From contig CALYBD010000028.1 of NCBI GenBank assembly GCA_944393745.1, positions 1 through 33,757 of the forward strand: a DNA stretch of 33,757 nt. The letters are read 5' to 3'. Of the stretch, positions 9,511 to 26,732 are shown in pieces (positions within the stretch are counted from its first letter, which is position 1; each line of letters begins with the position of its first letter). The notes beneath the pieces are model-generated. The model was not told the origin of the DNA and ran no database searches. It was given only the letters and a program-made list of their open reading frames with translations. Source of the stretch: an uncultured Alphaproteobacteria bacterium (GTDB taxonomy: Bacteria > Pseudomonadota > Alphaproteobacteria > CAAGCB01 > CAG-977). Position numbers and translations under genes: made by a program.

Positions 9511-10147
9511 TTCCTCGTCTCCGGTAATATTGGATTAAATTATCGCCGTATGATTTTTCTTTCATTCGATTGATAAAACTTTCCAAATCATAGTGATTTT
9601 CATGAAGTAAAAATAGATTGCTCTCGCTGTCAAATTCCGCCCAACAAATTGTTGATTTATTGGCTCTGTTTTGCCCAATACTGCCAACGTTAACAAGATG
9701 AACATCCGTGTTTTGGTACTCGTTCTGGTAATGTGTGTGGCCTACGCATAAATTACCGATCACACAGTTCGTTTTCGACTGATATAGATAAACCCATTTC
9801 CCGTTTTTTTTAACGGAATGGCGAAATTCAAAATCCCCCAAACAAGCACTTTCGTTGTCAGGCAAAAGGTCAAATCGTGTAAAAAGCGGAAAAGAGCATT
9901 TAAAAAACTCTTGTGCCAGAGAAGAACAATCTGACGCGTTTTTCTTTTTGAAGTTTTCTTCGTGATTCCCCTTTAAGATAATTACGTTCGACAATGAACA
10001 AACCGTTTCTAAACATAAATCACTGTCCGGCCCGTATCCGACTATGTCCCCCAAACAAATAAAAGCATCACAAAAAGAACTCGCTTCCAAGAAGGCCTTT
10101 AAAGCGGGATAATTGCCATGCACATCGGAAAACACTGCGTACTTCAT
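9494..10147 (-). CDS. Calcineurin-like metallophosphoesterase
   Basis: A metal-dependent phosphoesterase of the YfcE/Metallophos_2 type. The motifs are in order: FSDVHGN (about residues 6-12), GDIVGYGP (about 33-40), GNHE (about 60-63), and later GHTH. These supply the two-metal ligands, so the active site looks complete. The start is the ATG at 10147, which shares its A with the upstream stop (TGATG), behind GAGG; TTG and GTG codons just upstream are alternatives. Family members hydrolyse phosphomonoesters or diesters. In this operon it may dephosphorylate a sugar or glycerol-phosphate intermediate, but the substrate cannot be read from sequence. Confidence 0.8.
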   Translation of the reverse strand: MKYAVFSDVHGNYPALKAFLEASSFCDAFICLGDIVGYGPDSDLCLETVCSLSNVIILKGNHEENFKKKNASDCSSLAQEFFKCSFPLFTRFDLLPDNESACLGDFEFRHSVKKNGKWVYLYQSKTNCVIGNLCVGHTHYQNEYQNTDVHLVNVGSIGQNRANKSTICWAEFDSESNLFLLHENHYDLESFINRMKEKSYGDNLIQYYRRRGNDKNS

Positions 10148-11965: not shown

Positions 11966-13097
11966 ATTTTTTCACCATTTCAGCCACATACATCACATCG
12001 TCATGCGTCAAATGAATATGCAACGGTAATGACAACGTATGTTCAGAAGCATACAAAGAACATGGGCATGTTCCTTTTGCATAGGCGTACATCTTATATT
12101 CCGTATTATCACGATAATGAACTCCGGGAAAAACACCAACGTCATTTAATGCCAAAAGCAATTCATCGCGATTGTTCACTAAAATCTGATACAAGTGACG
12201 AGAAGACTCGCAATCCGGCGCAACAGGAACGATACGAACATTCGGACAATCTTGAAAAGCGACATCATACCAGCCGGCAATTGTACGACGATAGGCGTTG
12301 TCTGCATCCAGATATTTTAAAGACACCAAACCGATAGATGCCATAATGGAATTGCCGTGATCTTTATGTCCCAGATATTCAACGTCGTATTTCCATTTAT
12401 AAGCACCACCTCCGGCTGATCTGGCAAAAGTGTCTTTGTTAATACCCAGCCAAGACTTTTTGCGCACGATTTCATCATGTTCAGCGTCCTTGAAACAAAT
12501 CATGCCACTGTCACCTGTCGGACAATTTTTAACCGCCTGATACGAATAAATAATCACATCAGCAACATCTTTTCCGGGAAGCGAGCCGTCTTTGTAACGC
12601 GTCCCCGCCATATGAGCCGCATCTAATATCAATTTTAATCCGTTTTCTTTGCAGATGGACGCAATTTCTGCAAGACGTCCAGTGTTTCCGCCAAGCCCTA
12701 CAAACATAACGGCGCGCGTTTTTTCGGAAATACGTTCCTTTACCGATTGCGGAGAAAGGCAGAGATATTCATCAACATCAGCAAAAACAACTTTCATATT
12801 GTTGTATAAAACCGCATGGTTCGTTGATACAAACGTCATTGGAGTGGAAATGATTTCATCACCATCCAACCAACCGTTTTGTTCTTTTAAAATATTAACG
12901 GCCAAATCAAGCCCTACTGTTGCGGAATTTAAATAATGCGCATACGGCAACCCGGTAAATTCTTTCCATTTTTCTTCTAATTCAAGGGTTTTGAAACCTA
13001 ACCCCGTCCAACCCTTTTCCAGACATTCGCGAATTTCGCTCAAGCATTCTTCCACACGAAATGTCGGTACAAACAATTGGATTTTTTTATCAGTCAT
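11955..13097 (-). CDS. DegT/DnrJ/EryC1/StrS-family aminotransferase (first)
   Basis: A PLP-dependent aminotransferase-fold protein of 380 residues. Visible landmarks are YLNSATVGLDLA (phosphate-binding region near 55-66), LILDAAHMAGTRY (the Asp that contacts the pyridine nitrogen, about 159) and SYQAVKN with the probable PLP lysine at 190. Family members convert keto-sugar nucleotides to amino sugars using glutamate. It starts within an ATGA overlap with the HAD phosphatase gene. It is distinct from the FdtB-like enzyme at 18603-19691: the lysine context is SYQAVKN rather than SFYPGKN. It therefore probably acts on a different keto intermediate, perhaps one made by the neighbouring TPP enzyme or SDR. 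Confidence 0.83.
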   Translation of the reverse strand: MTDKKIQLFVPTFRVEECLSEIRECLEKGWTGLGFKTLELEEKWKEFTGLPYAHYLNSATVGLDLAVNILKEQNGWLDGDEIISTPMTFVSTNHAVLYNNMKVVFADVDEYLCLSPQSVKERISEKTRAVMFVGLGGNTGRLAEIASICKENGLKLILDAAHMAGTRYKDGSLPGKDVADVIIYSYQAVKNCPTGDSGMICFKDAEHDEIVRKKSWLGINKDTFARSAGGGAYKWKYDVEYLGHKDHGNSIMASIGLVSLKYLDADNAYRRTIAGWYDVAFQDCPNVRIVPVAPDCESSRHLYQILVNNRDELLLALNDVGVFPGVHYRDNTEYKMYAYAKGTCPCSLYASEHTLSLPLHIHLTHDDVMYVAEMVKKYAK

Positions 13098-13705
13098 CTG
13101 TTTAAATCCTTTATACTTTTAATTTGTTGATCCGGTTCATAGGTTTTTAAAATTTCCAAAGCAGTAAATCCGTAAGAAACAGCTACCGAACGAACATTCA
13201 ACGCTTTTGCCGTCAAAATATCATGACCGGTATCCCCGATCAAAAGATCCTCAGGATCAAGAGTGCTGATTTCCTGTCTGATTAAATCCTCTTTTGTTTT
13301 AACCGCTTCGGTAACCAGCACTTTTTTAAAGAATCCGAGCAACCCCAAAGCCTGTAATTGCCCGAGGGTTTTTTGCTTAAACTGGCGCGCCGTAACGACA
13401 TAAAGGGTGTAATCCTTTTGCAATTCGGACAGCATTTCGGGAACGTTCGGATAAATGGTGTCCATTGCCAGATATTCGTCCGTTTCAATCAGCGACAGCC
13501 ATTCTTTTTCAAAAACCTTAAAGCGTTCCTCGTCGTATCCAAAACGCTGTTGCAAAATCATCTGATGATTAACTTTATGGCGTTTCAAATCCCAGTATTC
13601 CGAATAGGTCAATTTTGATTGCGGCACTAAAAATTGGAACAGTGAATACATACGTTTCCCCGCGTTAATCAAAGTCCCGTCCAAATCAAAAAAGATATTG
13701 TTCAT
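13094..13705 (-). CDS. HAD-superfamily phosphatase (Gph/PGP-like)
   Basis: A 203-residue haloacid-dehalogenase-type hydrolase. Motif I is FFDLDGTLI with nucleophile Asp7 and acid/base Asp9; motif II is VVTARQ; motif IV is LIGDTGHDILTAKALNV. The insertion between motifs I and II is helical, a C1-type cap, as in phosphoglycolate phosphatases. It should hydrolyse a small phosphate ester in the cytoplasm. It overlaps the TPP-enzyme gene upstream and the aminotransferase gene downstream by four bases each. The tight coupling suggests that it removes phosphate from an intermediate of the same pathway. Confidence 0.85.
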   Translation of the reverse strand: MNNIFFDLDGTLINAGKRMYSLFQFLVPQSKLTYSEYWDLKRHKVNHQMILQQRFGYDEERFKVFEKEWLSLIETDEYLAMDTIYPNVPEMLSELQKDYTLYVVTARQFKQKTLGQLQALGLLGFFKKVLVTEAVKTKEDLIRQEISTLDPEDLLIGDTGHDILTAKALNVRSVAVSYGFTALEILKTYEPDQQIKSIKDLNR

Positions 13706-15345
13706 GACCTGTTTCCCCCGTAAATTTCAGGAAAATCAAAACGGGTCATCGCGCGAGATACTTCCGCGGGAAAATCTATCTCAATCAAAGCCGGAGAATT
13801 ACTGTTTAAAATCGTCGGCAAAGAGGATTTTTCAAAAAGGTGATACGCAATGCCGTAAGCAAAAGCCAGCTTTTCCAAATCAGGCACGCCGTATCCGACT
13901 TTCGTCCCGACAAAGCGGCTGTCGTGGTATTTCATTTGGGCTTCCCGAATCATGCCTAAAGAATTATTGTTGAAAATAAAAATCTTTATCGGAAGTCGCG
14001 TCGCGCTGACGGATTGCAATTCCTGCATATTCATTTGAAAGCCTCCGTCGCCCGAAAAACAAATAACGGGGCGTTCGGGATATGCGAAACAAGCCCCAAC
14101 GGCTGCTGGAAGCGAATATCCCATGCACCCCAAGCCGCCGGAAGTCAGAAAGCGTTGTCCTTTTTTCAAAGTCCAACCTTGCGCCACCCACATTTGATTT
14201 TGCCCGACATCCGTCGTGATAACTGCGTCTGCGGGGGCTAAATCGGAAATTTCCTTGACAATCCCAACCGGCTGAAATTCTTTTTGCGTATAAAGGGGGG
14301 CAAATTTTTCCTTTAACTGATCGATTTCCGACAACCATTCTTTCGGCGCTTTGAATTCGGCGAGTTCAATCGCCTTATTCAAAAACGCTTTGATGTCGGC
14401 GTGTATCTTTAAATGCGTAAAGGCGGAATGCTTTAATTCCATGTCGTCAATATCGACGTGTATGATTTGCGCGTTCGGAGCGTATTGCTTTATGTCTTTG
14501 CCGACCTGCCGTTTGGCGAAGCGCGTTCCCAAAGCCAAAATGACGTCCGCCGATTGCACCGCTAAATTTGCGGCAAAACCGCCGTAATTTCCCGAAAATC
14601 CGATTTCCGTCGTCGTTCGAATATCAAATCCCATCAATGTTTTGACGGTCGGCAGGGCGGTCTTGTTTACAAAGCGTTCCAATTCGTCTTCGGCATCGGC
14701 CAAACGAACGCCGCCGCCGATTAAGATGAGAGGTCTTTTGGCAAAACGAAGCAAAGACAAAGCTTGCGCCGTTTTTTGTTCGTCCGCTGAAAAGACGGAA
14801 GCGGTTTTCGTTTCCTTTATTGCGGAATCGTCCGTTTCGCTCATCAGTATATTCATCGGAATATCCAGAAGAACCGCGCCTTTGCGCCCCGAATAAGCCG
14901 CGTCCAAAGCTTCGCGCAAAATATCCCCGACTTCCGATACGCCAGTGATTTGTTTGGCGTATTTCGTCAAAGGACGCGCCATTGAAACGGCATCAATTTC
15001 TTGAAATCCGTTTTGGCGAACGTTTTTTTCTTTTAAATCAAACGTATTGACTTGTCCCGTGATGAACAGGCAGGGAATGGAATCCAAATGAGCCTGTGCA
15101 ATCGCCGAAACCAGATTGGTCGCCCCGGGGCCGTTCGTCACAACGGTGACCGAACATTTTTTCGTCAGTCTGGCGTAAGCTTCCGCCGCAAATCCGGAAG
15201 CCTGCTCGTGATAGCATTGAATATAGCGCAATCCGGCAATCGTCATCGCGTCGATTAAAGGCGTGACCGCGCCGCCCTGATAACCGAAAAAGCAATCGAT
15301 GTCGTTTTGTTTTAAAAACAGGGCTATATAATCACAGACGCGCAT
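13702..15345 (-). CDS. Thiamine-diphosphate-dependent enzyme, acetolactate-synthase-like
   Basis: This 547-residue protein has all three domains of the acetolactate synthase/pyruvate oxidase family. The N-terminal TPP Pyr domain carries the activating Glu in CYHEQASGFAAEAYAR (about residue 47). The middle domain has RPLILIGGGVRLADAE. The C-terminal PP domain has GDGGFQMNMQELQSV...FNNNSLGM, the GDG-to-NN metal-TPP motif. I chose ATG 15345 because AAGGGG lies before it and family homology begins there. Its place in a sugar operon argues against housekeeping IlvB: related enzymes such as YerE make branched sugars from keto-sugars and pyruvate. No small IlvN-type subunit gene is nearby. Its base composition looks richer in GC than the 3-10 kb part of the operon. 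Confidence 0.83.
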   Translation of the reverse strand: MRVCDYIALFLKQNDIDCFFGYQGGAVTPLIDAMTIAGLRYIQCYHEQASGFAAEAYARLTKKCSVTVVTNGPGATNLVSAIAQAHLDSIPCLFITGQVNTFDLKEKNVRQNGFQEIDAVSMARPLTKYAKQITGVSEVGDILREALDAAYSGRKGAVLLDIPMNILMSETDDSAIKETKTASVFSADEQKTAQALSLLRFAKRPLILIGGGVRLADAEDELERFVNKTALPTVKTLMGFDIRTTTEIGFSGNYGGFAANLAVQSADVILALGTRFAKRQVGKDIKQYAPNAQIIHVDIDDMELKHSAFTHLKIHADIKAFLNKAIELAEFKAPKEWLSEIDQLKEKFAPLYTQKEFQPVGIVKEISDLAPADAVITTDVGQNQMWVAQGWTLKKGQRFLTSGGLGCMGYSLPAAVGACFAYPERPVICFSGDGGFQMNMQELQSVSATRLPIKIFIFNNNSLGMIREAQMKYHDSRFVGTKVGYGVPDLEKLAFAYGIAYHLFEKSSLPTILNSNSPALIEIDFPAEVSRAMTRFDFPEIYGGNRS

Positions 15346-16261
15346 ATAAATCCCCTTTTTTATAATAATCGACATAGGCGCGGATACCGTCTTCAATCGG
15401 CGTTTCGATCATGCCGAAAACCTGTTTCATCTTGGTGTTGTCAAAACGATTGGAACGTCCTGCTGGCGCTTCCGTAAAAACGATATCCGGCATTTTTTCC
15501 ATAATCCGGTAAATAAGATAAACAATGTCCTTGATGCGCACGGCTTGTTCCGAAACAAGATTGATTGCCCCTTTCGGTTCATCAAAATCGATTGCTTTTA
15601 AAATACATTCGCAACAATCATCGACCAGAAGCTGACTGCGGAAGTCTTCTCCGTTCCCGAAGATGCGGATTGTCTGTCCGTTCTCAATCCGGCGAACAAA
15701 AGAAGACACGATTTTGGAATAAACTTCTTCTCCGTTGCCATAGATTTGTCCCAGTCGTAAAATCTGCAAAACAAAGCCGTCCGTTTTGGATTTTTCATCT
15801 AAATATTTTTCGCACATTATTTTTGAAGCAGCGTACATCGTATCAGCGGCTAACGGCGTTTCTTCTGAAATGATATTTCCGTTACTTTGATAAATGCCCT
15901 GATAAACATCTACAGAACTGATATAAATCACTTTTTGAGGAACAGAAGGCAAATTTTCATACAAGTGTATCGTGTTGCGGACGTTTGCAATGAATTTGGA
16001 ATCATTTTCGGGCAGATAGTCCGCTTTTGTGCGCGGAACTGCTGAGCCTAAATGAACAACAACATTGATTCTATCAATTCCGGCTTTGGCAAAATCGTCC
16101 TTTGTAAAAGTATAGTCGTTATGAGGAATACACAGATAACCGTCAACCGGTTTTCCCGAAAGCAGGATAATGCGATCCTTTGAAAAATCGCCGCTTTCAG
16201 CGATTTTCCGCAAGAGCGTCTTTCCGACAAAGCCTGTCGCGCCTGTAATCAGGATATTCAT
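15332..16261 (-). CDS. NAD-dependent epimerase/dehydratase (extended SDR, second)
   Basis: A canonical extended SDR. TGATGFVGKTLL at the N-terminus is the NAD(P)-binding GxxGxxG, VVHLGSAVPRT follows, IYISSVDVYQG holds the catalytic Ser, and YAASKIMCEKYL gives the YxxxK pair. LQILRLGQIYG and LLVDDCCECILKAI are typical of the family. At 309 residues it has normal length. It overlaps the ATP-grasp gene upstream by ATGA and runs 14 bases into the TPP-enzyme gene. It is likely a nucleotide-sugar epimerase, reductase or dehydratase; the substrate is unknown. This SDR beside an ATP-grasp gene mirrors the SDR/ATP-grasp pair at 10147-11965. Confidence 0.85.
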   Translation of the reverse strand: MNILITGATGFVGKTLLRKIAESGDFSKDRIILLSGKPVDGYLCIPHNDYTFTKDDFAKAGIDRINVVVHLGSAVPRTKADYLPENDSKFIANVRNTIHLYENLPSVPQKVIYISSVDVYQGIYQSNGNIISEETPLAADTMYAASKIMCEKYLDEKSKTDGFVLQILRLGQIYGNGEEVYSKIVSSFVRRIENGQTIRIFGNGEDFRSQLLVDDCCECILKAIDFDEPKGAINLVSEQAVRIKDIVYLIYRIMEKMPDIVFTEAPAGRSNRFDNTKMKQVFGMIETPIEDGIRAYVDYYKKGDLYARL

Positions 16262-17325
16262 AATACGACGACCTCTTTTTCAATTTCCTCCGATGTCATC
16301 AGACGCGGCGGCGTGTCCATGCCGCGTAACCAGAACAGGTTGTCCGGCAGCGGATTGATTTTCTTTTCCAGTTTGGGAAATTCTTTATATAAAGCTAGAT
16401 CTTTGAATATTTCCGGCATATTCAGACCGGCCTGCGTAAAGAATAAAATCGTCGTAAAAAAGCGGGAAATATTAATTTCCGTCGGATTTGGAATGCCATT
16501 TTCATCATACGCCATATCAACGCCGAAAATACCGTGCGGTTTGTCGCTGACCGCCTTGACCGAAGCAATGGCAATTTGATTGACGGTGTCGTCCGAAGCG
16601 GTTTGTCCGACTTTTGTGACACCCGTAACACCGGACACGCTGCGGTTTCCGTGAATCCAGCCTGTTCTGCGGCGTGTTTGCGCGACGACCAAATCCCCTT
16701 CATACCAAATCGACAGCCATGTTACCGTCTTTGATGTCAGCATTTGCGCCGCGACGAAATCGCCCCAGCCGTTAAAGCGGTCAAGCCAACATTTTGCCAT
16801 TTGGTAATCGTTTGTCGGGATAGCCCCTTTTCCTCCACCGCCGATAGAAGCTGCCCGTAACCAAATTTTTCCATCAGCATCTCGTAATTGTGCAAAAGCC
16901 TTCTTTAAGTCGCTTTCATCATTAATCATTATATTCTCAGGAACCTTGATACCGGCAGCTTTGAATTTCAGATATGTCTTGTATTTGTGAACACAGGTGT
17001 CTATCACTTCATGTGGGGGCATAAATATTTTCACGCCTTGTGCCTGAATATCCTCCCGAATTAAAGACGCGTGGAAAATTTCCAAATCGTTTTGAAAATG
17101 GATCAAATCAGGTTTTTCCGTACGCAGAATTTTTAACAAAGCATTTTTATATTCGGGAGTGTTGGCATACGGCACATAATATTTCTTCTGTGCGTGTGAT
17201 AAAACCAAATCAGTAGGCTCTGACCCCATACCGATGATTGTTTCATGTTTTTTACTTTTTAATAAAGAATTGATGACGCCTTCTGAAGGAGCACCACCTG
17301 CTCCAGCAATTAAAATTTTAGTCAT
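16258..17325 (-). CDS. ATP-grasp carboxylate ligase-like enzyme (second)
   Basis: A 355-residue ATP-grasp protein. The N-terminal part TKILIAGAGGAPSEGVINSLL looks like a nucleotide-binding Rossmann strand-loop-helix. The ATP-grasp core shows GKIWLRAASIGGGGKGAIP (Gly-rich lid loop), WGDFVAAQMLTSKTVTWLSIW and, near the end, PNPTEINISRFFTT, which would carry the metal-binding Glu and Asn. Enzymes of this fold couple a carboxylate to an amine or thiol through an acyl phosphate. It is coupled by four-base overlaps to the ketoisomerase gene before it and the SDR gene after it. A sugar- or amino-acid-linked product is likely from context only. Confidence 0.78.
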   Translation of the reverse strand: MTKILIAGAGGAPSEGVINSLLKSKKHETIIGMGSEPTDLVLSHAQKKYYVPYANTPEYKNALLKILRTEKPDLIHFQNDLEIFHASLIREDIQAQGVKIFMPPHEVIDTCVHKYKTYLKFKAAGIKVPENIMINDESDLKKAFAQLRDADGKIWLRAASIGGGGKGAIPTNDYQMAKCWLDRFNGWGDFVAAQMLTSKTVTWLSIWYEGDLVVAQTRRRTGWIHGNRSVSGVTGVTKVGQTASDDTVNQIAIASVKAVSDKPHGIFGVDMAYDENGIPNPTEINISRFFTTILFFTQAGLNMPEIFKDLALYKEFPKLEKKINPLPDNLFWLRGMDTPPRLMTSEEIEKEVVVL

Positions 17326-17726
17326 ACATGTTCTCCTTGTTTAAATATGGCGTAATCCCGTATATAATCGGCTTCATTGTAATAATCGTCTGCTAAAACC
17401 AAGAGAACACAATCTGGGGAAAAGTTTTCCATTGTGTGCCAAACCATTCCTTCAATCAAAAGACCTTTGTCTGGCGTATCCAACAGGTAAATCGTTTTTT
17501 GATCGTGCATTTCGCAGTGAATTTCAACGCTACCTTTAACGGCAATCAGTATCTGTTTCAAATTTTTATGTGCATGAAAACCTCTGGAAATTCCGGTTTT
17601 CGTAGCGTAAATGTAATAAACTCGTTTAATGTCAAATGGCAGATTACGTTGATTTTCCAGAGCGATCAACGAACCACGGTCGTCTCCATGAAGTTCAAAC
17701 GGAATCAAAGTAATGTTTGCCGTCAT
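17322..17726 (-). CDS. fdtA: Sugar 3,4-ketoisomerase, FdtA/QdtA-like (WxcM-type cupin)
   Basis: This 134-residue single-domain cupin matches TDP-4-oxo-6-deoxyglucose 3,4-ketoisomerases, whose usual length is about 135-140. Signatures are GDDRGSLIALE at about 14-24, the active-site SRGFHAHKNLKQ with conserved histidines near 50, and the C-terminal WHTMENFSPDCVLLVLADDYYNEADYIRDY. The enzyme moves the keto group from C4 to C3 of a dTDP-6-deoxyhexulose, giving the substrate for the aminotransferase encoded at 18603-19691. FdtA (galacto product) and QdtA (gluco product) cannot be told apart by eye, so the symbol is provisional. It is coupled by ATGA overlaps on both sides. Confidence 0.85.
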   Translation of the reverse strand: MTANITLIPFELHGDDRGSLIALENQRNLPFDIKRVYYIYATKTGISRGFHAHKNLKQILIAVKGSVEIHCEMHDQKTIYLLDTPDKGLLIEGMVWHTMENFSPDCVLLVLADDYYNEADYIRDYAIFKQGEHV

Positions 17727-18616
17727 TGCTTCCTCCTGATGAAGTTACGCAGTTTTTTCCATTTTGCCCGCCAACCGAAACGTTTACACCACTGTCGTTG
17801 CCACTGTTTTTTATGTCCGTTGGCTAAACAGTATTCCTTTTCGTGTCCGTAAATCTGACGATAGATTTCTATGGATTTTTTTTGAAATTCAGGACTGGAA
17901 ACAGTATTAGAATCGTGCCAACGATAGGAATATAAAATTTCAGGTATGTATTTAAATTTTCCGCATTTTGCCAATTGCAGATTCATATACCAATCTTCCA
18001 AATATATGGTTGGATCGTACTTGCCGACATCAAGAATAGATTGACGAAGTATAAGTTGTCCGTTAGGAATATAATTACCTTTTAACAAGTCACTATAATC
18101 ACCGAAATTCGGATGTTTGTTATCATCTGAATTGATATGCAACTCGTCTCCAAATGTTTTATAGACGGCCTGATCTTCGAGTACGATTTCTCTGTTTTTT
18201 CCCCAATAAACACGTTTTGAATCCGTATTTATGATTTCATTGTCTCCGACAGCCAACACATAATCCGGATTTTCAGATAAAAATTTATGTAATTTTTCAA
18301 TGCTAACAGATTTTAGCCGATCATCTGAAGCAGGAGCACAAATAAATTTCCCGTTGGCAATATCAACTAATTTGTTTAAAGTCAGACGAGTTCCCTGATT
18401 TTCCTGCGTTTCCATGACGACACGAACGAAGCGTTTTTCGCATTCGGATTTCAAAGATTGTAAGATCTCAAACGTTTTATCTTTGGAACCGTCGTCGATC
18501 ACCAGCAATTCAATATTCTGATATGTCTGTGCAATTATTGAACGGACACATTCTTCAATGTATCGTTCGTGATTATAAGCCGGAATCATTACGGAAATCA
18601 GATCATCGGTAGGCAT
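17723..18616 (-). CDS. GT2-family glycosyltransferase
   Basis: A GT-A glycosyltransferase. [21 protein letters not shown] and [14 protein letters not shown] form the N-terminal nucleotide-sugar-binding core, APASDDRL supplies the DXD-like metal motif, and [34 protein letters not shown] is the acceptor-side ED/W region with the RxHxxN-like end. I chose the ATG at 18616 because GGAGG lies six bases upstream; an earlier in-frame start would add 11 residues. The C-terminal tail is rich in Arg, Lys and Trp ([17 protein letters not shown]), suggesting peripheral membrane attachment. It overlaps the FdtB-like gene by 14 bases. The sugar it transfers may be the amino-deoxyhexose made by its neighbours; this is inferred from position only. 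Confidence 0.87.
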
Positions 18617-19691
18617 TAACAACCTCCGTGACCTGTTCAATTTCCTCATCTGTCATAACAGGGGAAATTGGAATTGAAATAATGGTACGATGGATTTCTT
18701 CACTGATCGGATAAGATCTGTCGTTCCATTCCTTATAAGCTAATTGCTTATGTGGCGGGGTCGGATAATGAATGATTGTTTGCACCCCGTTATCCGACAA
18801 ATACTGTTGGAAATGATCCCGTTCTTCCGTACGCACGGCGAAAACATGCCAAACAGCAGCCTGTTCGTCATAGGTCTGCGGCAAAACAATCAAAGGATTG
18901 ATAATGTTTTTTCTATAATAAGTCGCTATCTCACGACGACGAGCGTTGTCCGCATCTAAATGGGGCAACTTTACGTCTAAAACGGCGGCTTGCAATTCGT
19001 CCAAACGACTGTTCGTTCCTTTGTAAATATGGTGATATTTTCTGTCAGAACCATAATTTGCCAAGGCTTTGACTTTTTTATACAGATCTTCATCGTTGGT
19101 AACAACGGCTCCGCCGTCTCCCATGCACCCGAGATTTTTTCCCGGATAAAACGAAAAAGCTCCCGCATCCGACAGATTGCCCACACGTTTCCCTTGATAA
19201 AAAGCTCCGTGTGCCTGCGCGCAATCTTCAAATACTTTTAAATTATACTTCCGTGCAATTTCCCATACCTTTTGCATCTGAACGGCTTGACCGTATAAAT
19301 GAACGACCATAATCGCTTTTGTTCGGGACGTTATCGCCGCCTCGATCTTATCGGGATCAATATTGTAAGTATTTATATCCGGTTCAACTAAAACCGGTGT
19401 GCATCCATTCCCGGAAATGGCCAATATCGTTGCTATATAAGTGTTTGCCGGCACAATGATTTCATCGCCCATACCAAAATCACTCGCATGAATAATTAAT
19501 TTGAGTGCTTCAAGTCCGTTAGCGACGCCAATCGCATATTTCGTACCGCAATACTGAGCAAAATGAGCGCAAAACATCTCGTTGTGTTCGCCCTGCAAAT
19601 ACCAGCCCTTGTTCACAATATCAGTAAAACGAAACTCAATTTCTGAACGAAAACGATTGTTTACTTTAGCTAAATCAAGAAACGGAATCAT
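18603..19691 (-). CDS. fdtB: Sugar-nucleotide 3-aminotransferase, FdtB/QdtB-like
   Basis: A DegT/DnrJ/EryC1/StrS PLP aminotransferase of 362 residues. PFLDLAKVN at the N-terminus, [37 protein letters not shown] (pyridine-nitrogen Asp) and [16 protein letters not shown] (PLP lysine about 185) are diagnostic. With the FdtA/QdtA-like isomerase in the same operon it most likely makes dTDP-3-amino-3,6-dideoxy-galactose or -glucose, with glutamate as amino donor. The ATG at 19691 is chosen because GAGG lies five bases upstream; a GTG two codons earlier is an alternative. The usual third partner, an acetyltransferase (FdtC/QdtC), is not found nearby, so the amine may stay free or be acylated by another enzyme. 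The symbol is provisional. Confidence 0.83.
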
Positions 19692-19848
19692 AAACACCTC
19701 GGATATAAAGCGAACGGGATAATCTTGGAAACGTAGCCATTTTCGTTTCTCCGGTTTTTAAGCATTGAGCTCTGGACATGACCGAAGTTTCCCGTTCATA
19801 AGGGGTATTAAAGATCGTGAGTTTGAGTTCTGTATTCGCTTTTTTCAT
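19675..19848 (-). CDS. Small protein of unknown function (57 residues)
   Basis: An ATG at 19848 overlaps the stop of the ABC exporter gene as ATGA, the same coupling seen throughout this operon. The frame stays open for 57 codons to a TGA at 19675-19677, overlapping the start of the FdtB-like gene by 17 bases. The product begins [14 protein letters not shown] and ends [16 protein letters not shown]. It has no signal peptide or membrane segment and is moderately basic. I do not recognise a family. It may be a genuine small gene, or the N-terminal remnant of a longer gene whose place was taken by the aminotransferase. The coupling and the continuous tiling are the main support. Confidence 0.5.
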
Positions 19849-21617
19849 GCTGCATTTTCCTTTTTGGTTTTGAACTGCATTTCATACAGAACCGCATATT
19901 CTCCTTTTAAAGCCAACAGTTCTTCGTGATCGCCCTGTTCAACGATGCGGCCTTCGTTGATGACAAAGATTTTGTCCGCGTTTTTGACCGTCGAAAGTCT
20001 GTGCGCAATAACCAGCACCGTCCGGTTCTTCATCAAATTATCGATGGCTTGCTGAACAACGGCTTCGGATTTGTTGTCTAAAGCGGAAGTCGCTTCATCC
20101 AAAATCACAATCGGAGCGTCCTTCATGAACGCGCGAGCAATCGCAACGCGCTGTTTTTGACCGCCTGACAGCAATACGCCGCGTTCCCCGATTTGCGTAT
20201 CCAGTCCTTTGTCCAACGTTTGAATAAAGTCCGTCAAACATGCGCTCTTTATCGCTTCGTCCAGTTGTTCTTGTGTGTAATCCGTCTTGCCCAGCAAAAT
20301 GTTTTCGCGGATCGTGCCACTGAATAAAAAGTTGTCTTGGAACACAACGGCGATATTCTCGCGCAAATCGAACAAATCGATGTTCTTCACGTTGACGCCG
20401 TCTATCAGGATTTCTCCGTGTTGAATGTCATAAAAGCGGGGAAGCAAGCTGACAAACGTCGATTTGCCGCCGCCGGAGTTCCCTACAAAAGCGTACATCT
20501 TGCCGATTTCAAGCGTAGCGGAAACATCCTTTAAAACAGGGCGCTCCGCCAGATATTCAAATCCGACGTTTTTGTATTCGATCGATTTGCGAACGCCGTC
20601 CATATGAACGGGATTGTCAACGTTGCGAACGGACGGAACGGAAGCCAGCGTGTTGAACACCTGATCCATCATCATGAACGACATTTGTACGGACGTATAA
20701 CTGTTGCCCAATCCTTTTATCGGCGTATAAAGCATCAACAAAGCCGCAATGAACGACACAAAATTACCGCTGGAGATTTGTTGCGTCACAATCAGGTAGC
20801 TTCCCAACCAAATGGCGCCGGCTATCCCCAAAGAAACGATGAAGTGGATCATCGGAGACAAAATACCCGTCTTTTGAACCATTTTGATTTGGATTTTGAA
20901 CATATCGTTCAAGTCTTTGTTGAACCGCTGTTCTTCGCGCTGTTGCAAGTTATAGGACGCAATGATGCGGTTACCCGAAAACGTTTCGTTATAGTGCGTC
21001 GTAATCGCAGATATTCCGCCGATCTGTCTGCTCATCAGGCTTTTAATGCGTTTGCGTACGCTGGCCAACGGCAGCAAAGCGCCGAACATGAAAATCAAAG
21101 CGACGATGGATAACTGCCAACTGTTCCAGAACAGAACACAGATTAAAGATATCGATGAAAAGATACGCGTCGTAAACAGTTTTAAATTAGCCAAAAGACC
21201 GCTGCACGCGCTTTCGGCGCATGTGGAAAATTGCATGATTACGTTGCCCGAAGACGTGTGATCAAAAAACGCGGGATCGCAATGCAACAGCTTTTTATAC
21301 AGGTCGCGCTTCATACCCATCGTAATCTTCTGACCGACCCAAGTGTTCAAATACGTCGCGCCGTAATTGCACAAGCTTTGCAACAAACTGCCGATAACAA
21401 TCACCAACGGCATCAGAGATACGGCGTGAACCTGCTTTTCCACAAGAACAACGTCCATGTACGGCTTCAATATCCATGCCGTCAACGCATCAAACGATCC
21501 GATAGGAATCGTAATTAACACCGCCAACAATGCGCGTACCCAATACGGGCGAACGTACGGATACATCTTGCGATAGTTCCTGATTATTTGCGTATTCAAC
21601 AGGCGGTTAAAAAACAT
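19845..21617 (-). CDS. ABC exporter, MsbA/PglK-type (fused permease and ATPase)
   Basis: A 590-residue half-transporter. Residues about 25-310 form a six-helix exporter permease (helices visible near 28-50, 68-88, 150-185 and 255-300). The C-terminal ATPase has Walker A GNSGGGKST at about 379-387, the signature LSGGQKQR, Walker B VILDEATSALD and the H-loop VIAHRLST. MsbA flips lipid A-core, and similar-sized PglK/Wzk flips lipid-linked oligosaccharide; eye inspection cannot separate them. Because no Wzx, Wzy or Wzm/Wzt is present, a role in moving the lipid-linked product of this locus is plausible. The start follows AAAGGAGG and five bases and overlaps the RgpF-like gene. Confidence 0.87.
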   Translation of the reverse strand: MFFNRLLNTQIIRNYRKMYPYVRPYWVRALLAVLITIPIGSFDALTAWILKPYMDVVLVEKQVHAVSLMPLVIVIGSLLQSLCNYGATYLNTWVGQKITMGMKRDLYKKLLHCDPAFFDHTSSGNVIMQFSTCAESACSGLLANLKLFTTRIFSSISLICVLFWNSWQLSIVALIFMFGALLPLASVRKRIKSLMSRQIGGISAITTHYNETFSGNRIIASYNLQQREEQRFNKDLNDMFKIQIKMVQKTGILSPMIHFIVSLGIAGAIWLGSYLIVTQQISSGNFVSFIAALLMLYTPIKGLGNSYTSVQMSFMMMDQVFNTLASVPSVRNVDNPVHMDGVRKSIEYKNVGFEYLAERPVLKDVSATLEIGKMYAFVGNSGGGKSTFVSLLPRFYDIQHGEILIDGVNVKNIDLFDLRENIAVVFQDNFLFSGTIRENILLGKTDYTQEQLDEAIKSACLTDFIQTLDKGLDTQIGERGVLLSGGQKQRVAIARAFMKDAPIVILDEATSALDNKSEAVVQQAIDNLMKNRTVLVIAHRLSTVKNADKIFVINEGRIVEQGDHEELLALKGEYAVLYEMQFKTKKENAA

Positions 21618-22467
21618 GTTTTCCTCCTTTGCTTTTTGTTACAAAGACAGGAATTTTGAAAAATTTGATGATGATTTTTCCCGAAGACGTCTCTTTCTTT
21701 CGCCAAAAGAAATTTTGCAAAATAGAAATCGTTCTCTTTAATCCTTGAACGATAGGAACAGTCAAAACGTCTTTGATTAAAAGATTCTGTGCCGCCACCA
21801 AAAATCCGAACAATCGTTCAAAAGCGTAGGGGAGGACATCGTCAGAACCGTGTTCGGACGTTTCAAACTGATCTGCCGTTATATTTATATCCTGAAGTTT
21901 CGAAAACACTTCGGCTCTTGCCATAAACATCGTGCCCATGACATAAGAAAACCTCTTTGCCGAATATCCGAGAGCCGTTAATAATTTCCGAGCCTTCCGG
22001 ACGGCTTCCGGATTGGATCGGTCATTTCTGACAATCAAGCGATAATCGGCAATCATTCCCAAATGCCGATCCCGTTCAAAAGCCTGAAGGCTTTTTTCAA
22101 AAGTTTCTCTGCTTTGCAAAAAAGCATATAAATATCTGCGCCATTTGTTCCCGGAAACATCAAAACCGTTTCGGATCGTTCCTGTCGGCAAATCACGCTT
22201 TGTGTGCAATTTTATAACGTATTGATACCGGCTCAGATCAACACTCTTTAACACTTTTAAAAACGGCCAGACATCAAACCCTTTGTTTTCAACCCTCAAA
22301 ATACGTGCTTGAGGGGTAAGCTCCGAAACATCTTTTTCAACGCTCGTATTGTCCTGTGTCATCGTCACAATGAGATCGTACGGTTCCGTTATATTTTGAA
22401 GAACCTGCTTTAACTCGCTCCACAGGTTCAAATAGTATACGTGTACATGAACAAGGATCCGGCTCAT
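21607..22467 (-). CDS. RgpF-like glycan assembly protein
   Basis: The pattern follows the RgpF (rhamnan synthesis F) family: ILVHVHVYYLNLWSEL at the N-terminus, then VENKGFDVWPFLKVL, the hallmark YQYVIKLHTKRD (about residues 83-95), and FSYVMGTMFMARAEVF with FERLFGFLV further on. The family acts in assembly or modification of rhamnose-rich and other surface polysaccharides and probably has glycosyltransferase activity. At 286 residues it is normal for single-domain members. The start overlaps the stop of the GT61-like gene and has GGAG nine bases upstream. The C-terminal segment (KIIIKFFKIPVFVTKS) is a basic-aromatic tail. Confidence 0.8.
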   Translation of the reverse strand: MSRILVHVHVYYLNLWSELKQVLQNITEPYDLIVTMTQDNTSVEKDVSELTPQARILRVENKGFDVWPFLKVLKSVDLSRYQYVIKLHTKRDLPTGTIRNGFDVSGNKWRRYLYAFLQSRETFEKSLQAFERDRHLGMIADYRLIVRNDRSNPEAVRKARKLLTALGYSAKRFSYVMGTMFMARAEVFSKLQDINITADQFETSEHGSDDVLPYAFERLFGFLVAAQNLLIKDVLTVPIVQGLKRTISILQNFFWRKKETSSGKIIIKFFKIPVFVTKSKGGKHVF

Positions 22468-23759
22468 TTCGGTGATCTCCTGACTTTGAAAGAAAAACCG
22501 AAAAGGGTGTAAATACGGAACACTCCGTCACTGCGTTTCATAAACAGGCGTTGACGCAATGTTAAAAAAGCGGTCGAACAATATTTTTTTATGCGCCGGA
22601 CATAAACCGGATCGATCCCCGTCAAAGCCCCGTTATATTTGTTTGAAGAATAACGAGCAAAAAAAGCGTGATTAAATTTTTGAACGGCCCTGTCGGACAC
22701 ACGGTTTAAATCTTTTTGATTAAACGAAAACCCTCTGTCGTTAAAAAATTCTCCCAAATGATCCGTTATGCCTAACAGCAACGGAGAAAACTCATGACCG
22801 ACCGGTAAAAAATTCTGACAAACAGATATGCTGTATCCGTCAAGTCCCGCCGCTTGGTTAATCAGAATTTGTTCATCTACAATATTCTCAGAACGTTCCA
22901 AAACAATGTTCTTTGTTCCTTTGTCGGCAAACAAAGAAAGATGTGTCGCCGTCCCCATAACGGAAGCCATCTCTTTGGCTCCTTTGATATAGGCGATTTG
23001 TTCTGATAAACCGAGCCGTTCCGGATAAATCACTTTAAAGCCGTTCGCTTTAAAAGCTTTTTCCAATTTCTCTTCGCCGATGATCGTGATGCCTGTCTTG
23101 AATTTTCGTCTGGACAGATAAATGCGTTCATATGACTTTGCCTTAATGCCGGCGGCAGCGACCTGATACGGAACCAAAAACAATTCACTGTAATAATTTG
23201 CAAAAACACTGCTTTGACAGGGCACAATGATTTTTGAAAACTTTGTCGGGACATCAACAAAAAGCAATCGTTCCTTTTCAACACCGATCAGTTTAAAAAA
23301 TTCGATGATTTGAGAAGAAACTTCCCGATTTTTTTCCTTGATGAACACAATCGGATAAGACAAGTTTCGATTTTTAACGACAAACCATAATCTGTTGACG
23401 CTTTCCGTTAAAAAATGTCCGAAATGGTCAAATAAAATCCCGCCGTATATAACCGTTCCGGGATCATAAAACACCGTATTCGGATCAAACGGATATCCCT
23501 TTTTTAAGGATCCTGTCTCTGTCTTGAAATCATGAATATGTGCCGAAGGTTCGAAAAATTTCCCTTTTTCGTCCGTGATGCCTCCCAGAAAAAACCCTTT
23601 TCCTTCTTTATCCAACCGTTTTTTTAACGGCAAAACAACGGCGTTTTCGACTTTATCTGTTTTTTCGGCAATGGATTTAAAATAATCCCTTGAAAACGCT
23701 CGCTCGTAACGTTGATAAATCTCCGGATCCGTATAAATGCGTCTTTGATGTTCCGCCAT
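22464..23759 (-). CDS. GT61-family (DUF563) glycosyltransferase
   Basis: This 431-residue protein matches the GT61/DUF563 family. DHFGHFLTESVNRLWFV is its N-terminal hallmark, followed by IYLSRRKFK near 220 and the C-terminal GTATHLSLFADKGTKNIVLE, which resembles the family's G.hGA.l.n..F motif. Bacterial members are capsule and LPS glycosyltransferases. The start is supported by AAGGGGG six bases before ATG. The C-terminus ends with a basic, aromatic tail (GVFRIYTLFGFSFKVRR). It lies between the first GT2 gene (12-base gap) and the RgpF-like gene (ATGA overlap). The donor sugar is not readable. Confidence 0.82.
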   Translation of the reverse strand: MAEHQRRIYTDPEIYQRYERAFSRDYFKSIAEKTDKVENAVVLPLKKRLDKEGKGFFLGGITDEKGKFFEPSAHIHDFKTETGSLKKGYPFDPNTVFYDPGTVIYGGILFDHFGHFLTESVNRLWFVVKNRNLSYPIVFIKEKNREVSSQIIEFFKLIGVEKERLLFVDVPTKFSKIIVPCQSSVFANYYSELFLVPYQVAAAGIKAKSYERIYLSRRKFKTGITIIGEEKLEKAFKANGFKVIYPERLGLSEQIAYIKGAKEMASVMGTATHLSLFADKGTKNIVLERSENIVDEQILINQAAGLDGYSISVCQNFLPVGHEFSPLLLGITDHLGEFFNDRGFSFNQKDLNRVSDRAVQKFNHAFFARYSSNKYNGALTGIDPVYVRRIKKYCSTAFLTLRQRLFMKRSDGVFRIYTLFGFSFKVRRSPK

Positions 23760-23771
23760 AAAGAGCCCCCT

Positions 23772-24758
23772 TTAAAAAACAGACAAACAAAAACGCAACG
23801 CTTCAAAGCGGCGCTTTAAAAATAACGCACTGAATAAACGATTGCGAATATCCAAATATCGCGGCTGATATAAACCGTCATGTCTTAATCTCAACAATAA
23901 AGGTTGATACTTATCCCAAAATTTCAGATAGCCCCGATTTGTCTTGACTCGTTTGTAAGGAGTGACAATGCAATCTTTACATAACATTTTCATTAAACGA
24001 TAGTTCAGCCTGTTTCGGATATGCGGGGATAATTCTTTGTCTTTAAAATCACTAAGAACCAAACGAACAGCTGTTATACCATTATGAATGTCTTCTTCTT
24101 TTAATTCTCTGTGAATCAAGCTGTCGGAATGTTGACGGTAATAAATTAATTCGGCTTGAACATAACTGATTTTTTTTGCCGCAAACAGTAACGAATGCAT
24201 TACCACGAAATCTTCTGCGATCGTAAGTTCTTCCGGCAAACGGATTTGTTTAAACAAATCCGCTCGATAAAGCTTGTTCCATAAAGCAACTTTCGGATTA
24301 TTTACTTTGTTCAGAACAAATGATTCAAAATGATTAGAAATTTCTTTAAACGAAGGAAAAGAAATATTATCAAAAGAAATTTTTTCACCATCTTTAAAAC
24401 GATTGATATCGCAGTAAACAATATCACTGTCCGTTTCAATGAGGGCTTTTAACATGATTTCCAGCATTTGCGGATGCATCATGTCATCTGAATCCAGAAA
24501 CGCGATATATTCTCCGCCGGCTTGATCCAAAGCAGCGTTACGTGCCGCTGATACGCCTCGATTGTTTTGTTCGACAATTTTAATCCGATTGTCTTTCGAT
24601 GCGTATTCACGTAAAATCGATAAACTGTTATCCGTACTGCCGTTATCAACACAAATTGCTTCATAATCTTCAAAACTTTGAGCTTTTAAAGATGACAAAG
24701 CGGCCGATAAATACTTTTCAACATTATATATCGGAATAATGACGGATATCTTAGGCAT
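23772..24758 (-). CDS. GT2-family glycosyltransferase (first glycan gene of the operon)
   Basis: A GT-A enzyme with a typical GT2 core: ISVIIPIYNVEKYLSAALSSL, YEAICVDNGSTDNSL and IAFLDSDDMMHPQML, with the DXD-like metal site at about 90-94. LWNKLYRADLF and EDFVVMHSLLFAAKK follow as in EpsJ/WaaV-like enzymes, including the catalytic-base ED. The 328 residues fit. The Shine-Dalgarno GGAGGGG lies four to five bases before the ATG and inside the end of the degenerate recombinase gene, which it overlaps by eight bases. The recombinase-like protein and this transferase are therefore made from one transcript. Confidence 0.88.
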   Translation of the reverse strand: MPKISVIIPIYNVEKYLSAALSSLKAQSFEDYEAICVDNGSTDNSLSILREYASKDNRIKIVEQNNRGVSAARNAALDQAGGEYIAFLDSDDMMHPQMLEIMLKALIETDSDIVYCDINRFKDGEKISFDNISFPSFKEISNHFESFVLNKVNNPKVALWNKLYRADLFKQIRLPEELTIAEDFVVMHSLLFAAKKISYVQAELIYYRQHSDSLIHRELKEEDIHNGITAVRLVLSDFKDKELSPHIRNRLNYRLMKMLCKDCIVTPYKRVKTNRGYLKFWDKYQPLLLRLRHDGLYQPRYLDIRNRLFSALFLKRRFEALRFCLSVF

Positions 24759-25335
24759 TACACCCCTCCGTTACTTCGGGGTGATCTTTGATGTAGTAGT
24801 ACAAAGAGGTCGGTGCGATGGACAGCAACCGGCAAACTTCCGCCTTTGTCTTTCCGCTTCTAAGCAGACTTCGAATTTCTTTTTTCTTCTTATCCAATTT
24901 ATAGGCGCCGTTCTTTGCGCCTTTCGGACGACCGATCGAACGACCTTGAGACTTCACTTGTCGCAAAGCCTCTTTCGTTACCTCCGAACGCACTTCGTCC
25001 GTTATGTCCGCAACAAGTCCGAACACATACGCCATGGTCGCGGCCGATACGGCATCCCCGCCAAACTGAATTCCGTCCTCGCAAGAATAAATAACAACTC
25101 CCTTGCGTAATAAATCCTGCAATATTTTCAAAATGGAGCTGACACCGTTGCCCAAACGAAAGGTCTTTTCCAATAACAATACATCATATTCTTTGAAGCG
25201 TCTGGTACTGAATGTTTCCGAATAAATCCACGCGTCAACCGTCATATCGTGCGTTTCGGCATAAGCGGAAATCGTTTTTTCCTGCCGCTCTGTAATGTCC
25301 GTAAACGCGCTGTCTTGAACAAATCCGTAAATCAT
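24751..25335 (-). CDS. Degenerate serine recombinase-like protein, possible regulator
   Basis: A 194-residue relative of the resolvase/invertase family. The N-terminal start IYGFVQDSAF aligns with IYGYxRVST, so the nucleophile position is still Ser9 but the catalytic Arg8 equivalent is Gln7. Further on EKTFRLGNG replaces ELSRLGRK, keeping one active-site Arg (R60) but changing the second to Asn63. The region between is about 13 residues shorter than in the intact neighbour. The long helix region (MAYVFGLVADITDEVRSEVTKEAL) and the C-terminal HTH (SIGRPKGAKNG...TKAEVCRLLSIAPTSLYYYI) are well kept. It probably binds DNA but may not cut it. Its overlap with the first glycan gene suggests a regulator or partner subunit for the operon. 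No strong Shine-Dalgarno precedes the ATG. Confidence 0.75.
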   Translation of the reverse strand: MIYGFVQDSAFTDITERQEKTISAYAETHDMTVDAWIYSETFSTRRFKEYDVLLLEKTFRLGNGVSSILKILQDLLRKGVVIYSCEDGIQFGGDAVSAATMAYVFGLVADITDEVRSEVTKEALRQVKSQGRSIGRPKGAKNGAYKLDKKKKEIRSLLRSGKTKAEVCRLLSIAPTSLYYYIKDHPEVTEGCNA

Positions 25336-25564
25336 TTATATCAACCGCTTTCATCCTTAAAAGTGCGATTAAATATTCTCCGTTTGATCTAAAGATTTTC
25401 GGCTTTGACGACATTTTAGAAAAAGCTCATAAAATAAAGGGTGAGACAAAAAGACAGTTGTCAAAAAGCGACAATTAGTGTACACAAGAAAAACGGACGT
25501 TTTTTCTGAATGATTCCGGCTTTAAACGCAAGTTATTCTGCGTTATTGAAGCAAAATAATGTGT
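25336..25564. promoter_or_regulatory. Leader of the glycan operon, between the two recombinase genes
   Basis: This 229-bp non-coding stretch should hold the operon promoter if the operon is not read through from the recombinase gene upstream. On the - strand there is a TTGACA (about 25457-25462) but no well-spaced -10 box. It holds closely spaced repeats: GACAAAAAG (25445-25453), TTGTCAAAAAG (25458-25468), the inverted pair TTGTC/GACAA (25458-25474), GTGTACAC, and an imperfect palindrome centred on CGGACG. These look like binding sites for dimeric DNA-binding proteins such as the adjacent recombinases. Confidence 0.4.
25484..25509. repeat. 26-bp imperfect palindrome, invertase-crossover-like
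   Basis: Two 12-base half sites around a central GA: ACAAGAAAAACG and, on the other strand, TCAGAAAAAACG, agreeing at 9 of 12 positions. A 26-bp site of two 12-bp inverted halves and a 2-bp core is the layout used by Hin/Gin-type serine invertases. Alternatively it is an AT-rich transcription-stopping hairpin after the invertase gene. I did not find a second, inverted copy in the window. Confidence 0.3.
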
Positions 25565-26161
25565 TTATTTCTGTTCTAAAAAAGAGTAGATCGAGCCAAC
25601 ACTCATTCCCGTTAAACGTGCAACTTTTGTTTTACAATGACCTTGATTTAATAATGAAACGATCTTCTTTTCCTTGCCGTTCCAGATGTGTCTGGCGTTC
25701 TTTTTGCCTCTCGGACGCCCCAGAACTTTCCCGTTTGCTTTCCGGCGTTGCAAGGCCTCTTTCGTGCGCTTGCTGATCATCTCCCGTTCCAACTCGGCAA
25801 CCAAGCCGAAAGCAAAAGCCAAAACCTTGCTTTGAACGTTATCGCCTAATTCATATCCGTCTTTGACGGTCAATACCTTTGCCCCGACCTTCATACAATG
25901 TTCAAGAATAGAGATAATCATAAACAGTTTGCGCCCTAATCTGGACAGTTCCGAACAAATGATCACGTCTCCGGATCGTATTGTCTTGAGCAGTTTGCCG
26001 AGCTTGCGTTTCTCCGGCTCTTTTGTTCCCGAAACGCCGTCGTCAACAATCCAATTTTCAATGGACAGCCCGAGCTTTTGAGCTAAATCCGTAATCCCGA
26101 TTTTCTGATTGTCGCAATCCTGTTTGTCCGTTGATACTCTTAAATAACCGTATACTGTCAT
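25565..26161 (-). CDS. Serine recombinase (resolvase/DNA invertase family)
   Basis: A complete 198-residue small serine recombinase. VYGYLRVSTDKQ carries Arg8 and nucleophile Ser10; CSELSRLGRK carries the active-site Arg74 and Arg77. FGLVAELEREMISKRTKEAL is the long dimer helix, and the C-terminal KVLGRPRGKKNARH...KTKVARLTGMSVGSIYSFL is the Hin-type HTH. All catalytic residues seen in the family are present, so it should resolve or invert DNA between paired sites. AAAGGAAC lies before the ATG. It sits upstream of, and in the same direction as, its degenerate relative and the glycan operon, and is surrounded by repeats. Its target could be a promoter inversion; a transposon resolvase role is less likely because no transposase is nearby. 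Confidence 0.88.
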   Translation of the reverse strand: MTVYGYLRVSTDKQDCDNQKIGITDLAQKLGLSIENWIVDDGVSGTKEPEKRKLGKLLKTIRSGDVIICSELSRLGRKLFMIISILEHCMKVGAKVLTVKDGYELGDNVQSKVLAFAFGLVAELEREMISKRTKEALQRRKANGKVLGRPRGKKNARHIWNGKEKKIVSLLNQGHCKTKVARLTGMSVGSIYSFLEQK

Positions 26162-26194
26162 CGTTTAATGTTCCTTTCTGTAATTGTTTCAAAA

Positions 26195-26209
26195 AGACCT
26201 ATTTGGTCT
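26195..26209. promoter_or_regulatory. Possible operator of the serine recombinase gene
   Basis: The palindrome AGACC-TATTT-GGTCT lies 34 bp upstream of the recombinase ATG, between start codon and probable promoter. The position suits autoregulation, but only symmetry and position support it. It adjoins another CAAAAAG motif (26190-26196). Confidence 0.25.
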
Positions 26210-26290
26210 GAGGAAACATTTTACGAGGCAATCTGCCGATAAAAATCGCTGTTTACAAGAATATCTTTGCACTGTATTTTACTAAAAAGT

Positions 26291-26350
26291 GCTAATGAAA
26301 CTGCTAATGAAACTGCTAATGGATTTGCTAATGAAATTGCTAATAAAATC
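26291..26350. repeat. Tandem repeat of a 12-bp unit, five copies
   Basis: The unit GCTAATGAAACT recurs at 26291, 26303, 26315, 26327 and 26339 with a few changes (GGATTT, AAATT and AATAAAATC in the last three). A single further GCTAATAAAA occurs at 26516. The period is exact. It could be an iteron-like protein-binding array or a slippage-prone tract. In-frame reading gives a Leu/Met/Lys repeat with no good ribosome-binding site. Confidence 0.7.
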
Positions 26351-26444
26351 GGACTGGCGGGGAATTTTTATGGCGTATCTTATTGATTTTCAACAAAAAC
26401 CAATCTGTCTCGGGGATTATCCCCCCCTCTCCGCCATTTTGGAC

Positions 26445-26478
26445 AAGAACCCATTGTTTTCAACGGGTTCTTTCGTTT
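26445..26478 (+). terminator. Terminator-like hairpin inside the non-coding region
   Basis: AAGAACCC (26445-26452) pairs with GGGTTCTT (26465-26472); three further inner pairs are possible (TTG/CAA) around a T-rich loop. It is followed by TCGTTTTTT. This is a good rho-independent terminator on the + strand, yet no + gene ends here. It may end a short RNA or a leader that starts within the repeat region. Confidence 0.5.
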
Positions 26479-26580
26479 TTTACAGCCCCTTCAAAAACTT
26501 ACTGTTCATCAAACTGCTAATAAAACGTTCCCCGCCGATATTTTTCGGGAACTTTAATCCCATACGGGGGAGGACATGTC

Positions 26581-26712
26581 ATGCGCCGATATGAAATTTT
26601 ACACCCTGTTTTAGACCGGTTAAGTCTGAAAACAAACGTAAAAAAAAAGAGCTTTAAAAACTCTTTAAAAGTCCGTTTCTGCCAGTCTAAAAATGATTGT
26701 CAAAAAGTCTAA
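26581..26712 (+). CDS. Possible 43-residue small protein
   Basis: An ATG at 26581 lies seven bases after a strong Shine-Dalgarno (GGGGGAGG, 26566-26573) and opens 43 codons to a TAA at 26710-26712. The product is basic (begins MRRYEILHPVLDRLSLK). I recognise no family. The frame overlaps the weak hairpin at 26646-26666 and the direct repeat at 26684-26723, which lowers the odds that it is a conserved gene. The strong ribosome-binding site is the only real support. Confidence 0.2.
   Translation: MRRYEILHPVLDRLSLKTNVKKKSFKNSLKVRFCQSKNDCQKV
26646..26666 (-). terminator. Weak rho-independent terminator after the DUF3800 gene
   Basis: On the - strand AAAGAG and CTCTTT form a 6-bp stem with a 9-base loop followed by a run of T (the complement of the A-run at 26640-26648). 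It lies about 65 bp after the stop of the DUF3800 gene and could end that transcript. The stem is short and AT-rich. Confidence 0.4.
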
Positions 26713-26723
26713 AAATAATTGTC
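26684..26723. repeat. Direct repeat of an 18-bp unit, period 22
   Basis: AGTCTAAAAATGATTGTC (26684-26701) and AGTCTAAAAATAATTGTC (26706-26723) differ at one base. Between and across them runs TTGTCAAAAAG (26697-26707), which also occurs at 25458-25468 on the other side of the serine recombinase gene. They start 10 bp beyond the DUF3800 stop codon. They look like paired protein-binding sites. Confidence 0.6.
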
Positions 26724-26732
26724 GTGCTATAT

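Follow-up and report, generated by a model that had tools for sequence, protein, structure and literature searches.

Small serine invertases such as Hin and Gin recombine crossover sites that consist of two half-sites around a 2-bp core, and Hin is encoded inside the segment that it inverts. The polysaccharide (PS) loci of Bacteroides begin with UpxY and UpxZ. In Bacteroides fragilis the serine recombinase Mpi inverts 13 regions; the PS promoters under its control are thought to lie in small invertible segments between short inverted repeats, with a surface polysaccharide operon downstream (PMC4747536). In the same species the gene of Tsr19 (BF2766), a tyrosine recombinase with a further, distant site of action, lies directly beside the invertible promoter of an exopolysaccharide (EPS) operon (PMC4747536). 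In Akkermansia muciniphila an invertible element with the repeat motif CGGATT..AATCCG precedes the capsule locus cps1 and gives mixed populations, in an account that mentions no recombinase (PMC13343947). Here we describe a locus from an uncultured alphaproteobacterium, contained in a window of 33,757 nt (i.e. the whole of the DNA stretch analysed, contig C28 of a 2.25-Mb assembly of 60 contigs), in which a presumed serine invertase probably flips a 117-bp segment lying between its own gene and a surface-glycan operon, the first gene of which encodes a catalytically dead paralogue of the invertase.

The locus resembles the Mpi-controlled promoters in having an Mpi-family recombinase, short inverted repeats, a small invertible segment and a downstream surface polysaccharide operon, but here the segment lies next to the gene of its invertase, and distant sites were not found. 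Unlike the PS loci, the operon begins with a dead recombinase. The proximity of recombinase and segment recalls Tsr19, for which the available part of the B. fragilis study describes no dead paralogue (PMC4747536). The placing of an invertible element before a glycan locus is shared with A. muciniphila, which belongs to a different phylum. The recombinases have the fold of Hin and Gin, and the half-site and core arrangement is common to these systems; unlike that of Hin, the invertase gene lies outside the segment.

The segment between the recombinase genes

All the genes concerned are on the minus strand, in the transcription order DUF3800 gene (27605-26733), intact recombinase (26161-25565), second recombinase-like gene (25335-24751) and glycan operon (GT2, GT61, RgpF, ABC exporter and DegT), which begins with GT2 at 24758. 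A first-pass annotation of the window had placed both recombinase genes at the same positions and had read them and the operon in one direction, and we agree on both points. The intact protein scores 121.9 bits against PF00239 and 249.6 bits against NF009949 (the Mpi family), which is its best family by far, with a score narrowly under the curated cut-off of 272 bits. Gin and γδ resolvase are sequence relatives. Alignment with γδ resolvase and among the intact proteins shows that the equivalents of R8, S10, R45, R68 and R71 are all present, while that of D67 is serine in the clade of intact proteins. We take the protein to be a locally encoded Mpi-type serine invertase, presumably with the chemistry that this implies.

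Crossover sites can be assigned at both ends of the inter-gene segment. The outer half AAAACGNCC of the invertase-proximal site (IRL) is conserved across loci, and AAMSGGWGAATATT of the operon-proximal site (IRR) is conserved at homologous positions. The spacing from core to core is 116-120 bp at eight loci. Inversion is indicated by whole-locus comparison of relatives, where the inter-gene stretch of G006:C88 (loci are given as genome:contig, from comparison genomes labelled G002, G004, G005, G006, G007 and G011) aligns only in reverse to those of G006:C21 and G002:C3. Between the conserved cores, AAAACGACC and GGTGAATATT, the segment has an inner part of 113 bp; that of G006:C88 is 88.5% identical to its counterpart in G006:C21 when flipped, as against 56% over 46 alignable bases directly, and 86.6% identical to that of G002:C3 when flipped. 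The flanks of the inverted segment are collinear, and 88-96% identical in the direct orientation. Inversion of the segment is thus well supported by the comparison of the relatives' loci.

The palindrome noted in the first-pass annotation is a genuine site, conserved at homologous loci, but the repeat with which it pairs, short and imperfect, is no distant inverted copy and lies at a distance of only some 115 bp, and of the stretch 25336-26732 that had been suggested to invert only 25380-25496 appears to do so. The central idea of that annotation, recombinase-driven inversion controlling a whole glycan operon, is nevertheless supported by the opposite orientations in G006:C88 and in G006:C21 and G002:C3; the extent of the stretch and the distant partner site are not. 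Perfect repeat arms measure 13 bp in G002:C14, 9 bp in G002:C3, 8 bp in the related locus C33 of the window's own genome and 7 bp in the window itself, and the 13-bp repeat exceeds that in all shuffled sequences. We judge the window's repeats to be real because its relatives carry them, the statistics of the window by itself being insufficient.

In its own genome IRL has matches in C28 and C33 only, so that there is no dispersed set of sites for a single invertase, and the enzyme has the look of a local invertase, not of a master acting across the genome as Mpi does. Across the family's genomes no IRL or partner motif was found outside coding DNA away from the loci with the recombinase pair. 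Additional pattern matches, considered as distant copies of the site, appear to fall inside coding DNA and look like chance.

The orientation of the promoter has been argued from homology because scoring with a sigma-70 weight matrix was almost never significant. Three loci of G006 and G002 share, with 100% conservation, the half-segment that ends in TATTGCTAAAAAAGGCAAATTGGTATAACCAAGAAAAAGGG. The IRL end of the window's segment resembles this conserved promoter end (54% identity, p=0.011; p=0.28 for the opposite end), and so does the IRL end of C33 (p=0.014) while its other end does not. The segment would thus carry promoter activity close to one end, and the assembled window is most likely in the OFF orientation, with the candidate promoter directed away from the operon. 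The one exception in the matrix scoring is a site in the window outside the conserved position (p=0.017).

Table 1. Positions of the components of the proposed switch, the operon and the RNA element in the window.
Feature	Position	Strand	Basis and remarks
Invertible segment, 117 bp from core dinucleotide to core dinucleotide	25380..25496	.	Between the two recombinase genes; equivalents at seven other loci; inverted in G006:C88
IRL, invertase-proximal crossover site	25484..25509	-	CAGAAAAAACG-TCC-GTTTTTCTTG; the palindrome of the first-pass annotation
IRR, operon-proximal crossover site (approximate limits)	25371..25389	-	GATCAAACGGAGAATATTT
Candidate promoter TTGTCA-17-TACACA in the segment	25458..25486	+	By homology; faces away from the operon (OFF) and toward the invertase gene's 3' end
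Intact Mpi-family serine recombinase, 198 aa, presumed local invertase	25565..26161	-	PF00239 (3e-35), NF009949, residue alignment
Catalytically dead paralogue of the serine recombinase (194 aa), opening the glycan operon	24751..25335	-	Residue losses, selection, AlphaFold2 fold
First glycosyltransferase (GT2)	23772..24758	-	PF00535 (5e-40); its start codon falls within the last bases of the dead recombinase gene
Glycan operon under the proposed switch	3186..24758	-	GT2, GT61, RgpF, ABC exporter, DegT, GT2 and further genes; Pfam for the first six, layout of open reading frames (ORFs) for the rest
Structured RNA within the operon, located 5' of DegT	19689..19819	-	Covariation and distribution; not in Rfam

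A dead paralogue under selection

The second gene had been described as degenerate, which does not fit what we find: the reading frame is complete, its relatives match it in length, the core motifs are retained, and a dN/dS of 0.06-0.12 between close copies indicates purifying selection rather than the decay of a pseudogene. Its product scores 37.9 bits (2.3e-09) against PF00239 and 107.6 bits against NF009949 (cut-off 272). Compared with the intact proteins, the window copy has Q for R8, N for R71 and F at the position of D67, and has lost the loop carrying R45. Among nine dead members R8 is replaced by Q in eight, the R45 loop is gone from all nine, R71 is replaced by N or K in eight, and the catalytic serine is kept only in C28 and C33. 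The DNA-binding arm (GRP arm) and the C-terminal helix-turn-helix (HTH) are kept. An AlphaFold2 model (pLDDT 81) gives full-length Tn3 and γδ resolvases and a resolvase-Hin chimaera as best matches.

In the tree the dead proteins form one clade (support 100/99), i.e. on the sequences they have a single origin, within one alphaproteobacterial family. No member of this clade was found outside the family in 299 genomes of the phylum, viral contigs, plasmids and phages, where the matches are ordinary Mpi-like proteins. The gene pair recurs at C33, with 85% DNA identity over 24723-26177, and at G006:C88, G002:C3 and G002:C14; the second gene stands alone or at contig ends at G006:C21, G007:C64, G011:C26 and G011:C11. 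The dead paralogues mostly open different glycan operons (that of C33 differs from the operon of the window), and the same pair precedes different glycan operons, which the first-pass annotation had proposed to check in related genomes.

The dead ORF overlaps the GT2 gene, as had been noted earlier, by 8 bp (24751-24758), and a GGAGG motif lies in its last codons, directly 5' of the GT2 start codon; overlap and motif together suggest translational coupling. The dead gene is full length at all seven loci that have the inverted repeats. At two others, C37 and G006:C128, which lack both the recombinase and IRL, it has suffered in-frame internal deletions, its ends being retained and the operon still there. 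Although small, this pattern links the dead protein with the switch and not just with the expression of the glycan genes.

The proposed switch and its alternatives

We consider it probable that a local invertase flips the operon promoter and that the dead paralogue, made only when the switch is ON, modulates it. The intact invertase would recombine IRL and IRR, turning over the segment between itself and the operon together with the promoter that it carries. In the ON state the promoter would read into the dead paralogue and then, through translational coupling, into the glycan genes; in the OFF state it would read back toward the invertase gene. Expression of the operon in the ON state would start with the dead paralogue, and because the paralogue is expected to be made in that state only and retains the dimerization and the minor-groove and HTH DNA-binding parts of a recombinase, feedback on inversion is the role that we infer. 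It would most likely bind the same or adjacent sites, and might for example stabilize the ON state or damp inversion.

Several observations weigh against this proposal. Apart from the one site outside the conserved position, the sigma-70 matrix found no significant promoter at any single locus, and the TTGTCA-17-TACACA site is not significant by it. The inverted repeats of the window taken alone (7 bp exact, TCCGTTT) are short and no better than chance. The two copies in the window's own genome, C28 and C33, share one orientation. The association of an undamaged dead gene with the switch is drawn from nine loci, two of them broken. Finally, the loci are few and all the genomes compared appear to be draft assemblies.

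A different role for the dead protein is conceivable. It could act on the glycan operon simply as a transcription factor or autorepressor, with no part in inversion, like the pathway-specific regulators whose genes stand first in their operons; the retention of the HTH and GRP arm would be in keeping with this, and in G011:C11 the gene lies inside the operon. We regard such a role as rather unlikely, since the internal deletions at C37 and G006:C128, where the operon stays in place, fit a task tied to the switch.

It is less probable again that the recombinase works as a resolvase or shuffler of cassettes, helping to move or exchange whole glycan operons between loci, with inversions as occasional by-products. 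The pair does precede different operons, sometimes beside genes of a type IV secretion system (T4SS) or prophage remnants, and what C28 and C33 have in common around the pair ends a little upstream of the start of the invertase gene and a short way into the glycosyltransferase gene. The sites, however, are inverted and held at a constant spacing of about 117 bp, as in invertible promoters; outside coding DNA none was found away from these loci, and at the operon ends none was seen.

The inversion seen between relatives could also be a single old rearrangement in a system that no longer switches, for the ON orientation is clear in only one of the seven aligned loci, and the common orientation of C28 and C33 points the same way. 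We think this improbable. The invertase is under strong selection (dN/dS 0.02-0.13 where estimable), and its sites are conserved. Moreover, the crossover sequence is where contig G006:C49 breaks off (...AAAACGAC) and where contig G007:C64 starts (GGTGAATATT...), as expected of an assembler that had met both orientations, so that these two assemblies suggest mixed populations.

Lastly, the second gene as a decaying recombinase kept only as a translational lead-in, i.e. for its ribosome-binding site and coupling to the first glycosyltransferase, would explain why the overlap and GGAGG are conserved and why the broken copies retain both ends in frame, but is hard to credit given the purifying selection over the gene, the single clade with its core motifs, the full length at every switch locus, and the four loci where the RNA element described below, not an overlapping gene, follows the dead gene.

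Surroundings of the proposed switch and its significance

The operon led us to a widespread family of structured RNA that has no match in Rfam. A 54-bp element common to C28 and C33, considered as a recombination site, proved to be this covarying RNA. It is about 110 nt long, with an outer stem GAACGGGA/TCCCGTTC or GGUCGGGG/CCCCGACC and a core UAUGUYCAG...UUAAA. Across 33 copies, changes affect both partners in 18 of 22 pairs, with a covariation score of 0.628 as against 0.273 in shuffles. The RNA occurs in 34 of 385 alphaproteobacterial genomes (E 1e-4), with up to 7 copies per genome, and lies downstream of the dead recombinase at every locus searched with the model (C28, C33, C37, G002:C3, G002:C14, G006:C88, G006:C21, G006:C128, G007:C64 and G011:C26; G011:C11 was outside this search). 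Copies are also present in stretches L046, L051, L052, L053, L056, L058, L060, L074, L076, L084 and L126-L141. In several divergent copies the 3' arm of the outer stem continues into a terminator-like hairpin, after which come T residues, and alternative pairing is possible; this suggests an attenuator or riboswitch-like design.

The repeat-rich leader of the first-pass annotation lies upstream of the invertase gene. The repeats are there (a 12-bp tandem repeat at 26286-26349, in five copies of TGCTAATGAAAC, and others at 26429-26729), but the leader is mainly repeat DNA that resembles tRNA flanks: 26429-26573 shares 92% identity with the end of a tRNA-Ser gene of C10 and its 3' flank, and 26685-26727 matches the 3' flank of a tRNA-Met gene of C22. 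Because these matches are to tRNA 3' flanks in the same genome, they are probably the scars of mobile-island insertion. The repeats were considered as parts of the switch and are probably outside it.

The DNA upstream of the pair varies between loci, with the DUF3800 gene and tRNA-flank scars in the window and T4SS genes in G006, an arrangement matched in G002 and G004. The T4SS genes (VirB8, VirB10, VirB11, VirD4 and TrbL/VirB6-like by Pfam; L053:7366-15968) end directly before the intact invertase, with counterparts in L056 and L062, i.e. in three genomes. At the far end of the glycan operon of the window, positions 289-3151 encode a tyrosine integrase, a tail-fibre-like protein and a tail fibre assembly chaperone (PF16778). 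Related tail genes flank the glycan operon in G011:C26 (L058) and are also present in C10 and C25.

Other Mpi-like invertases have comparable repeats. One in G005:C22 is followed directly downstream by a 22-nt inverted repeat (95%) with copies 61 nt apart (L065:10525-10629) and a related core; this is likely to be a further invertible promoter, outside glycan operons. It thus looks common in the family for an invertase gene to have its own flippable segment behind it. A third Mpi-like invertase of the window's own genome (G000:C3; L047:10523-10678) has imperfect inverted repeats directly downstream, 116 bp apart from core to core, and enzyme and repeats stand before genes with apparent signal peptides.

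Bacteroides and Akkermansia provide the best-known phase-variable glycan promoters, and the present locus is probably a complete local switch of this kind in gut-type Alphaproteobacteria. It takes the form of a compact module (invertase, flippable segment and dead paralogue) set before different glycan operons. What is new is that the operon opens with the dead paralogue, which in the collections searched was found only within the family. The literature searched described no small serine recombinase without catalysis that is retained as first gene of the operon it came with, and held nothing relevant on a dead serine recombinase regulating inversion. It is a tentative thought, and somewhat less likely than not, that a dead recombinase made only in the ON state binds the invertase's own sites and so gives the switch memory (hysteresis) or bias; a recombinase pair would then have become an enzyme and its dedicated regulator, repeated across the glycan operons of one family. 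If the dead paralogue does bias the switch, it would offer a simple and testable model for how the frequency of inversion, or its memory, may be set at each locus.

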